Below, one piece after another: positions 30,603-60,243 of a DNA stretch of 64,000 nt. The stretch covers positions 2,702,501 to 2,766,500 of the forward strand of contig NZ_CP116902.1 of the NCBI RefSeq assembly GCF_028471905.1, written 5' to 3'. Numbering within the stretch: position 1 is the stretch's first letter; every line of letters starts with the position of its first letter. The translations under genes were made by a program, and so were the position numbers. The notes beneath the pieces are model-generated. The model was not told the origin of the DNA. It searched no databases and saw only the letters and a list, made by a program, of their open reading frames with translations. The DNA comes from Aneurinibacillus uraniidurans. GTDB taxonomy: Bacteria; Bacillota; Bacilli; Aneurinibacillales; Aneurinibacillaceae.

Positions 30603-30649
30603 AAGTATTGAATTTCTTCCTTTAACGATTTAAAATGTATATTAAAAAA

Positions 30650-30760
30650 TTGTATAGTATAACCTTATAGATATGGTATAAGGGTCTCTACCAGGAACCG
30701 TAAAATCCTGATTACAAAAAGTGTGTGTTTAACATTTATTTGTAATCAGGATTTTTTTAT
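30650..30760 (+). promoter_or_regulatory. Purine riboswitch, adenine type, with expression-platform terminator
   Basis: The aptamer core shows TATAACC, loop L2 GATATGG, the TCTACC junction, loop L3 ACCGTAAAA and the J3/1 strand GATTAC. The base at the discriminating position (30712) is T, which specifies adenine rather than guanine. AATCCTGATTACAAA (30704-30718), part of the aptamer, is perfectly complementary to 30739-30753, which is followed by seven T. Ligand binding should therefore prevent termination and turn the gene on, as in pbuE. Confidence 0.88.
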
Positions 30761-37082: not shown

Positions 37083-37198
37083 CGAAGCGGTGTATATGTA
37101 CCGATGGCTAGTCGGGAATTTACGCCTGTGGACTGTCAAACAAACCGTAGTAGCGGGCAAGTGGCGAGATGGGGCAGGATGAAACAGGAAAACTCTTA
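37000..37198 (+). ncRNA. Predicted omega-RNA (reRNA) scaffold of the tnpB element
   Basis: In this family the guide RNA overlaps the end of tnpB and ends at the element's right boundary. The 37083-37198 stretch is non-coding and GC-richer, with conserved-looking segments such as GTAGTAGCGGGCAAGTGGCG and GATGGGGCAGGATGAAACAG. The guide would be the first bases after the right end (starting ACATAGACG or nearby). The 5' limit is an estimate. Confidence 0.6.
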
Positions 37199-56743: not shown

Positions 56744-57814
56744 TTAGGCGAATAGACGAGACTCGAAGCGAGCGATCAAATCATTCGCATCTTCTCCGGT
56801 TTGCGCAGCTATTTGTGCCAGTACAGCATGGATGAATGCGGTGAATTCTGCCAGTTCTTCATCGTCAAATACAACCCGATCATTCTCCATACGAGATGTA
56901 ACAACCATCGATGTTACAAACTGCGTCATTGGCACATGCTCATCATTTAATACATAAAACACATAAGGATGCTGTTCCACAAGTTTGCCGGCCCACGCAT
57001 TAACAGCCGCATTGCTCATCATATCCTCAAGTTCCCCCGAAAAACCATAAAACGCAAAAACAAGCGACTCCTTCTGCCGTGCAAGAGCTTTTGTATCAGT
57101 GAGAAGCGGCGCAAAAAAAGCATCGATTTTTCCGATATCCTCACGTTCCACTTCCTCTCGCGAAATCTGAAGCGGAGTAATGTGTGAGACATCATCCGAG
57201 TCACGTTTTCTATCCGCTTCCTCTCCCGCTTCTTCCAATACAGCATCTGACATCTCAGCCAGCCAAGATTCAAACGAGACGAAATCATCCTCATACAACT
57301 CCCAGCCGATTGCCTCAGCAAACAAGCGGGCACGTGGGCGTGGCTTCATCCCAATCGCTTCGCACGTATCGTAAATCATCACCATCCGGCTCTGCACGAA
57401 GGTCTCCTGCTCTTCCTGATCTACCGGGAGTACATACGTACGGTACAGATGAGCTGTTTCTTCGTCTGCCCAATCCAGTAGCGCCGTTGCATCATATGTC
57501 TCTCGCTCAATGCGGTCGATCCAAGCATGAATTCGTTCCGAATCTAGGTCTCCCTCTCCGGCCCGTAGGCGAATCCATCCCCCTCGCTCTCCCGCTTCGA
57601 CCCGAGAGACTACTTCTTCTACCATGTCGGATGCTTCTTCACGCAGCACATCTTCCTCAAACGCGATCCGTGCAAGTGTCCATTCATAACGGCTTTTGGA
57701 CACGCTCTTTATATGTACATCGTCCACAGCTTGCGCAACGCTCTCTGCGGAATCGAGCGCTTCCCCGTTGTGCCTGCGCCCCGCAAATACTTTGCGCAAG
57801 AATCGTTTCATCAT
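56744..57814 (-). CDS. Uncharacterised acidic cytosolic protein
   Basis: 356 residues, start after GGAGGAG. Highly acidic and helical with few aromatic clusters; segments such as WTLARIAFEEDVLREEASDM, WADEETAHLYRTYVLPVDQE and TGEDANDLIARFESRLF. A short basic N-terminus (MMKRFLRKVFAGRR) could bind membrane or nucleic acid. No family recognised. It ends about 68 bp before the protease start and may be co-transcribed with it. Confidence 0.6.
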   Translation of the reverse strand: MMKRFLRKVFAGRRHNGEALDSAESVAQAVDDVHIKSVSKSRYEWTLARIAFEEDVLREEASDMVEEVVSRVEAGERGGWIRLRAGEGDLDSERIHAWIDRIERETYDATALLDWADEETAHLYRTYVLPVDQEEQETFVQSRMVMIYDTCEAIGMKPRPRARLFAEAIGWELYEDDFVSFESWLAEMSDAVLEEAGEEADRKRDSDDVSHITPLQISREEVEREDIGKIDAFFAPLLTDTKALARQKESLVFAFYGFSGELEDMMSNAAVNAWAGKLVEQHPYVFYVLNDEHVPMTQFVTSMVVTSRMENDRVVFDDEELAEFTAFIHAVLAQIAAQTGEDANDLIARFESRLFA

Positions 57815-57907
57815 GTGAACTCCTCCTGTTGTTCCTCTTTTCTTTCCTCTTTACATTGTACTGGTAAAACGTCTATGAAAAAAGTGAAAAAACACGGAGT
57901 CATCTGA

Positions 57908-57936
57908 TTGACAACGAGGAAACCGTGCATTATGAT
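57908..57936 (+). promoter_or_regulatory. Sigma-A promoter of the c-di-AMP riboswitch transcript
   Basis: TTGACA-N17-TATGAT; start expected near 57943, just before the aptamer. Confidence 0.85.
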
Positions 57937-57948
57937 GATTCAATCGTA

Positions 57949-58059
57949 ATTCAATTGCCGAGTCCATTATGGAGCGGGGGACCCGGAATTTGGGGTGAAT
58001 CGTACGATGCGTAGGGCGTCCTTTCGTCCGAACCCGTCAGCTAACCTCGTAGGCAGAAT
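57949..58059 (+). promoter_or_regulatory. ydaO/yuaA (c-di-AMP) riboswitch
   Basis: Conserved elements in order: TTGCCG, TCCATTATGGAGCGGGGGAC, GGGGTGAATCG, GTAGGGCGTCCTTTC, GTCCGAACCCGTCAGCTAAC and CTCGTAGGC. These match the ydaO consensus closely. P1 can form from ATTC (57949) plus GCC with GGC plus GAAT (58056-58059). The ribosome binding site AAGGAG starts at the next base, and no terminator lies between, so control is probably of translation. Confidence 0.9.
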
Positions 58060-58072
58060 AAGGAGAGGAATT

Positions 58073-58429
58073 ATGGTTCAATTTTTCAGGAGTGTACTGG
58101 CCAAAAAAGACAAGAAGCCAAAAACACACCAGGAACTGCAAGCAGATGTGCGTCTTATACTCAACCGTTTGGCCGGCAAAAAAATGAATGTTACCATTGA
58201 AACACCGAGCGAGACCAAACAAATTTCCGGTATTCTTAAAAAAGCAGCTGCTGAAATTATGGGGAGCCAGTATCAATGCCTTCATTTTTGTCTCGATATC
58301 GACACACACTGCATCGGCACGTTAGAACTTAGTTCTATTCATGAAGAAGCGGATCGAATTGTGATTCTTTGCGAACCAAACCATAGTCAGCCAGGACACT
58401 ACAACAAAATCATTACAATCAGGAAATAA
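58073..58429 (+). CDS. Uncharacterised small cytosolic protein under c-di-AMP riboswitch control
   Basis: 118 residues from the ATG at 58073 (AAGGAG upstream). The N-terminus is basic (MVQFFRSVLAKKDKKPKTHQ); the rest is a compact alpha/beta domain with VTIETPSETKQISGILKKAA, CLHFCLDIDTHCIGTLELSS and DRIVILCEPNHSQPGHYNKI. No signal peptide or membrane helix. I do not recognise it. The riboswitch class usually controls potassium transport, cell-wall hydrolases or osmolyte genes, so a turgor or wall role is an inference. Confidence 0.65.
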   Translation: MVQFFRSVLAKKDKKPKTHQELQADVRLILNRLAGKKMNVTIETPSETKQISGILKKAAAEIMGSQYQCLHFCLDIDTHCIGTLELSSIHEEADRIVILCEPNHSQPGHYNKIITIRK

Positions 58430-58438
58430 CCAGTCCCC

Positions 58439-58469
58439 ACCCCCGCGAAATCTCGCGGGGGTGTTTATT
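58439..58469 (+). terminator. Terminator of the riboswitch-controlled gene
   Basis: ACCCCCGCGA/TCGCGGGGGT, a perfect 10-bp GC-rich stem, followed by GTTTATTTT. Confidence 0.85.
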
Positions 58470-58682
58470 TTGATTGCGCATAAATACTTGTAATATAACA
58501 GACCTCCCACAACTATGCGTCATATTTTCATTACTCTAAAAATACGAAAAATAGCGTATGATTGAGAAATATGAAGAATATAAGCCATTCCTGTAAAAAA
58601 ACCACTCATTTATGATACAAAACACATTTGAATAATTATCTTCTGTTATAATACAATATAAACATCAAAGGAGGCGTTCAAC

Positions 58683-58820
58683 ATGATTCCAGTGTCTGAG
58701 TTCTATAACAACCTTCCAACGAAAACTTGTGCACGCTGTGGAGCCGAATTATCTGAGCAGGCTGAGTCTTATATGACTGAATGCGGCAGCAACGATACGT
58801 GCACTAACTTGCCTCACTAA
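58683..58820 (+). CDS. YhfH-like small zinc-ribbon peptide
   Basis: 45 residues after AAGGAGG. FYNNLPTKTCARCGAELSEQ followed by AESYMTEC matches the tiny YhfH-type proteins of Bacillales (NLP-x-K-x-C-x2-CG). CARCG and a later Cys pair could bind zinc. Function unknown. It has its own terminator. Confidence 0.72.
   Translation: MIPVSEFYNNLPTKTCARCGAELSEQAESYMTECGSNDTCTNLPH

Positions 58821-58964: not shown

Positions 58965-60243
<1,279 letters not shown>

Follow-up and report, generated by a model that had tools for sequence, protein, structure and literature searches.

A putative c-di-AMP riboswitch with a Shine-Dalgarno sequence in its loop-pairing tail and a proposed start-codon helix, upstream of a lineage-specific gene of Aneurinibacillus uraniidurans

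The ydaO-type c-di-AMP riboswitches described for Firmicutes act through transcription terminators in those parts of the cited literature that were available, and a single translational case appears there, for which the structural mechanism is a proposal. In that case, the ydaO-type switch of C. glutamicum nlpC, reporter protein was lowered and the transcript was unchanged, and a pseudoknot between a CTCC motif and the ribosome binding site was proposed in the sections of the report at hand (PMC9960051). For the crystallised ydaO RNA, the accessible portion of the paper mentions a stable pseudoknot, and the printed sequence contains CUCCUUCG ahead of the core and CGAAGGAG past P1 (PMC5393176); by our own reading of that portion, these two segments are the strands of the pseudoknot. 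Both the riboswitch class and its loop-tail pseudoknot are already known. At the gene described here, the tail that is complementary to the loop is the Shine-Dalgarno (SD) sequence itself.

The window that was analysed is a stretch of 64,000 nt (contig NZ_CP116902.1) from the 3.85-Mb genome of A. uraniidurans. An Rfam covariance search placed a c-di-AMP (ydaO/yuaA) aptamer at 57946-58070 on the forward strand (RF00379, model positions 1-134, 100.7 bits against a gathering cut-off of 38, E 9.7e-23), which bears out the original prediction of such an aptamer, made from the sequence letters. The sigma-70-type promoter that had been proposed for it, TTGACA-N17-TATGAT at 57908-57936 (+), likewise held: it matches the consensus at 11 of 12 bases, and the boxes, TTGACA and TAT(G/T)AT, occupy the same position in all eight orthologous leaders, separated by a variable spacer with a mean pairwise identity of 46%. 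Judging from the -10 box, transcription would start near 57943. The gene, which encodes a protein of 118 aa, extends from its ATG at 58073 to 58429 (+). The scan of 57500-58800 detected one intrinsic-terminator-like site, at 58438-58463 (+), 3' of the gene, and none between aptamer and gene, as had been claimed; in the eight orthologues a hairpin-plus-T scan detected no terminator within 330 nt past P1.

The SD, AAGGAG at 58060-58065 (+), had been described as beginning at the very base after P1. The strands of P1 are 57955-57959 (+) and 58052-58056 (+), corresponding to 57956-57959 and 58052-58055 of the Rfam alignment plus one U.G pair; the proximity is thus real, and the SD begins 3-4 nt past the helix. 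A closer contact than adjacency to P1 was found in the tail that follows it: the apical loop preceding GAACCCGUCAGCUAACCUCG and the purine tract beyond P1, in which the SD lies, are complementary. Here the loop segment UCCUU at 58019-58023 (+), able to act as an anti-SD strand, can pair with AAGGA at 58060-58064, or UCCUUUC at 58019-58025 can pair with GAGAGGA at 58063-58069. The latter register has the lowest energy (-9.9) and also covers the SD; it would form at the expense of one hairpin pair and of the last two pairs of the start-codon helix described below. The SD falls within the loop-complementary tail in 8/8 orthologues, and the duplex is weak in G001 (-4.6 kcal/mol) and G007 (-5.4 kcal/mol).

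Seven RF00379 elements are present in the window's genome, ahead of four NlpC/P60 genes, kdpA, an MpsC gene followed by yunB, and the 118-aa gene, and a survey of 14 relatives yielded 71 more, giving 78 aptamers from 15 genomes. Over this set (72 unique loop-tail pairs), loops formed duplexes with their own tails at a mean of -9.23 kcal/mol, compared with -7.86 (sd 0.21) when tails were permuted among aptamers and -6.06 kcal/mol for shuffled tails, and not one of 20,000 permutations reached a mean as low as the natural one. When the set was reduced to 26 diverse representatives, 3/20,000 permutations were as low. Only 11 of 72 loops had their own tail as best or tied-best partner, and for 30 it lay in the top fifth, because many tails are alike.

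An aptamer was counted as SD-adjacent when a start codon that has an SD and opens a reading frame of at least 80 codons lay 14-28 nt past the end-of-P1 point, defined as 5 nt past the core CUCG. By script, 50 of the 78 aptamers have this layout; a hairpin with a T-run follows within 200 nt in 20, one aptamer belongs to both sets and nine to neither. The start codon lies 16-25 nt past the reference point across all 50 leaders, and 18-21 nt beyond it in the eight orthologues of the 118-aa gene. One of the 50 (L045) is uncertain, because translation may in fact begin at a later GTG that has an SD of its own. In product-family counts that may overlap, the 50 leaders precede NlpC/P60 (30), LysM (7), 3D (7), MpsC (2) and amino acid permease (1) genes. 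The SD-adjacent layout is therefore the commonest one in the surveyed genomes, found chiefly on wall hydrolases, and the 118-aa gene shares it. The layout is more ordinary than the original prediction supposed: such leaders are the majority in the survey, and four of the seven elements of the window's own genome, those ahead of NlpC/P60 genes, have it too.

Other arrangements of these elements came to light in the same genomes. Two divergent elements (L002 and L006, G000:C1:576411-576913) lie 207 nt apart, facing kdpA on one side and MpsC with yunB on the other; divergent pairs on one contig also occur in G001-G006 and G013, and in G002 they are 1.1 kb apart. The literature searches found nothing that joins a c-di-AMP riboswitch with Aneurinibacillus or with MpsC/DUF2294.

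Besides the SD, the start codon of the 118-aa gene has a potential partner. The segment AAUCGUAAUUC at 57942-57952 (+), at the predicted 5' end of the transcript, is complementary to GAAUUAUGGUU at 58068-58078 (+), which includes the AUG at 58073-58075. The proposed helix, P0, would extend P1 across an internal loop whose 3' side carries the SD. Its pairing is complete (11/11) in seven orthologues and 10/11 in one, and it appears in the minimum-energy fold of six of the eight leaders, being absent from G004 and G007. Among the 50 SD-adjacent leaders the eight orthologues rank 1-8 for the energy of this duplex (-10.3 to -11.9 kcal/mol), the next being L084 at -9.5. An 11-bp run was found in 0/1717 position pairs of the same geometry in the window and in 68/20,000 shuffles. 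Dinucleotide shuffles of the individual leaders equalled P0 in 0-7 of 200 cases, a rank that two other leaders share (L084, 3 of 200; L078, 6 of 200). Without ligand, P0 is predicted to form with a mean pair probability of 0.85 at 37 C, adding only 3.8 kcal/mol beyond P1. The AUG is unpaired with a probability of 0.06-0.08 in the free ensemble, and of 0.72-0.88 when P1 is forced and the 5' strand of P0 is excluded. Because the AUG is mostly closed in the free ensemble, P0 may act as a brake even without ligand. Folding and comparison of the leaders suggest a start-codon helix that would be peculiar to the 118-aa gene family among the leaders surveyed.

These findings are consistent with a mechanism in which binding of c-di-AMP would close P1 and allow the apical loop (UCCUU, 58019-58023) to dock on the SD, either at AAGGA (58060-58064) or in the register 58063-58069, and in which the 5' end of the transcript (57942-57952) would pair with 58068-58078 to hold the AUG in a P0 helix stacked on P1. 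Translation would be off with both SD and AUG blocked; ligand binding and response are themselves predicted. At low c-di-AMP the aptamer would open, and the YojF-like protein described below would be made alongside the Kdp potassium importer and the NlpC/P60 wall hydrolases under the same aptamer. The scheme builds on features that were computed directly, namely the aptamer, the promoter, the absence of terminator-like sites ahead of the gene, the loop-tail complementarity in relatives and the linkage to one protein family. With the SD as partner of the apical loop, in a pairing that the comparison of 78 aptamers supports, the most likely effect of c-di-AMP is to switch translation off. Control at the level of translation, already suggested in the original prediction, is the best reading of a leader whose SD partners the loop and whose start codon is part of a predicted helix, and we regard an OFF switch acting on this gene through loop-SD pairing together with a P0 block as probable. 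Its more specific form, a double lock in which ligand-closed P1 favours both the loop-SD pseudoknot and a coaxial helix of 5' end and AUG, imposed on a lineage-restricted YojF-like protein of a low-c-di-AMP programme of potassium and wall functions, is put forward tentatively.

The conservation of P0 invites a different explanation, namely that P0 stands outside the switch, that what is conserved between the -10 box and the aptamer serves as an operator or promoter element at the DNA level, and that loop-SD pairing alone regulates. The two strands of P0 have mean pairwise identities of 92% (5') and 98% (3', partly coding), as against 46% for the promoter spacer, and no compensatory change was seen in P0 among the eight orthologues, in which eight of the 11 pairs are invariant, two vary on one side and one departs by an unpaired cell. 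The lack of double-sided change suits an operator, as does AATCATGATT, a perfect palindrome (5/5) in six of the eight genomes, and as does a tandem ATGATTCAATC repeat that in several genomes overlaps with the -10 box; the shuffle ranks of P0, not being unique to the 118-aa gene family, point the same way. In the window this repeat, at 57933-57954, contains the -10 box and the 5' strand of P0; it is perfect in some orthologues and decayed here. Against an operator, two substitutions in G000 and G005, which represent a single lineage, break the palindrome (3/5) and leave P0 intact at 11/11, and the other 42 SD-adjacent leaders all lack a start-region duplex of such low energy. For the structure as a whole, 95.2% of cells in the alignment are paired, compared with 32-60% when it is slid by 1-3 columns, a result reached by 58/500 column shuffles for cells paired and by 39/500 for the covariation score, and whole-leader stability was no better than that of shuffles (z +1.29). 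On this evidence an operator is a possible but doubtful account of the conserved 5' segment.

The translational reading also has to be weighed against control that is mainly transcriptional, by way of pausing, Rho or RNA decay, and that translation would follow. There are precedents in the available text of one study, in which the C. glutamicum riboswitch sequence cut transcript levels at any level of c-di-AMP, and whose discussion refers to transcripts of a Streptomyces coelicolor switch that were terminated in vitro (PMC9960051). The lack of terminator-like sites, both between aptamer and gene here and over the 330 nt past P1 in the eight orthologues, argues against such control at this locus, and we consider it unlikely. 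An ON switch, in which core CCUC (58045-58048), freed without ligand, would pair with GAGG (58065-58068) of the SD region until c-di-AMP released the SD, is very unlikely: this pairing enters the minimum-energy fold once the 5' strand of P0 is kept unpaired, but CCUC lies in the conserved aptamer core, so that the pairing lacks specificity for this leader; in the free ensemble the SD stays mostly unpaired (0.55-0.97), and the bound state would set the SD against the loop.

The regulated protein, which the original prediction had called uncharacterised, has no Pfam family at E<=1, and two structural models now give it a predicted fold. NCBIfam gave one negligible match (MtsD, E 0.067, 11.3 bits against a cut-off of 800). 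Seven Pfam families matched one or two members each of the eight homologues at E 0.007-0.12, including the RimP C-terminal SH3 domain (two members, 0.096), and were judged unconvincing; polyubiquitin, the best solved structure by sequence (E 0.016), was taken as a chance match. Two AlphaFold models, built from the same eight sequences with either the window's protein (P0001) or the L013 homologue as first row, had mean pLDDT values of 75.8 and 74.1, and both show two helices followed by six strands. The best structural match of both was Bacillus subtilis YojF (PDB 1njh), with Z 10.7 (2.3 A over 92 residues) and Z 10.9 (2.6 A over 96), the next match reaching 5.7. Foldseek gave E values of 2.1e-3 and 1.9e-3 for YojF and nothing at E<=0.001; for the second model a RanBD1 domain was close behind by E value (2.5e-3), with a TM score of 0.33. 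Sm/Hfq, PH/EVH1 and ChuX/HutX-type folds scored Z 4-6, within the range of common arrangements, and were set aside.

The likeness to YojF (DUF1806, PF08830) is one of predicted fold, at 12-14% identity. PF08830 was not matched by P0001 at E<=1 or by any of the eight homologues at E<=5, and homology by profile comparison with 12 YojF sequences was not significant: local hhalign gave a probability of 5% and, as a single comparison, E 0.0074 over 24 columns (reversed control, E 0.19), and in global mode 13 columns were aligned, at E 0.65. No PF08830 protein over the cut-off was found in the seven genomes of the window's genus (G000-G006) or in G009, and one each was found in G007, G008 and G010; none of 14 PF08830 loci (12 clear and two weak matches) has an RF00379 element. 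The searches found no literature linking YojF with bacillithiol. The motif MV.FFR.VL at the N terminus is invariant in 8/8 homologues, and we would guess that the N-terminal helix binds a membrane or a partner. A sister family (G011-G014) encodes a small protein that weakly matches Sm-like Pfam families (E 7e-4, under the cut-off) and is present in nine copies over four genomes. Four of the nine copies follow a ydaO element at a distance of up to about 520 nt, one of these four after an MpsC-like gene (loci L045 1250-1504 (-), L067, L068 and L073), and the protein may be a further small beta-barrel of the c-di-AMP regulon. Kinship of the 118-aa protein with these small Sm/SH3-like proteins is not claimed, with no BLASTP alignment and 1.6% by hhalign.

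The distribution of the gene is narrow. Sequence search found the protein in 8 of 101 genomes, the window's own included, and profile search in 8 of the 11 genomes of the family, comprising Aneurinibacillus and close kin. A class-wide profile search of 398 genomes, these 11 among them, matched 13 at E<=0.05, namely the same eight and five others at 15.8-19.3 bits (best E 0.0032), with no confident copy among the 387 class genomes sampled beyond the family. The six weak matches in those five genomes (L016-L021) were treated as noise, three having internal stop codons and L016 having been inspected. A plasmid collection gave no match; in a genome-contig collection an alignment-based scan gave four Aneurinibacillus matches that added no new sequences. 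RF00379 lies directly upstream of the gene in 8/8 cases, the other seven orthologues scoring 96.5-103.8 bits, and these eight represent a single lineage, not eight independent events. As all eight homologues carry the same leader, the possibility raised at the outset that homologues are never linked to this RNA did not materialise. The downstream neighbour varies, being a YhfH gene in the window and a DUF948 gene in G006 and G007, with a terminator-like site before the latter gene in G006 and none in G007.

Several other features of the window were recorded. A T-box leader at 58966-59209 (114.2 bits) precedes a gene that we take to encode tryptophanyl-tRNA synthetase, and T-boxes also occur in L009, L010 and L014. 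The window further contains a purine riboswitch at 30635-30734 (69.8 bits) and a RAGATH-18 RNA at 37125-37190 (57 bits against a cut-off of 44.9), for which we know of no role. A divergent gene at 56744-57814 (-) encodes a 356-aa protein with relatives in 11/11 family genomes and weak, below-cut-off matches to the NdhI maturation factor CRR6.

Altogether, the models and comparisons point to a lineage-specific gene, YojF-like by predicted fold, under a real and conserved c-di-AMP riboswitch that is most likely translational and OFF, and the c-di-AMP regulon probably gains a new kind of protein through an SD-blocking switch. In the titles and abstract openings searched, and in passages of PMC6488665 and PMC7266159, no start-codon helix is described for this riboswitch class; as far as these searches go, the target gene and the proposed AUG lock are new. 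The P0 leader offers a mechanism that is open to testing by point mutation.

Among described systems, the B. subtilis kimA (ydaO) and B. thuringiensis kdp switches have the aptamer class in common with this leader and differ in that, in the parts of the reports available, an intrinsic terminator is described and the targets are potassium importers (PMC9960051, PMC6488665). The C. glutamicum nlpC switch is like the present one in having a ydaO-type aptamer without a canonical terminator and, by reporters, translational control that is OFF with c-di-AMP; in contrast, it controls a cell-wall peptidase, and the sections of that report covered here do not mention pairing between the 5' end and the start codon (PMC9960051). 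The ydaO leaders of NlpC/P60 genes in the same genome (L003, L004, L005 and L007) and in its relatives share the aptamer and a loop-complementary tail that holds the SD, whereas their start regions have no duplex of equally low energy and their products are wall hydrolases. The surveyed genomes supply natural SD-adjacent leaders by the dozen in which the same bases serve as SD and as loop-complementary tail.
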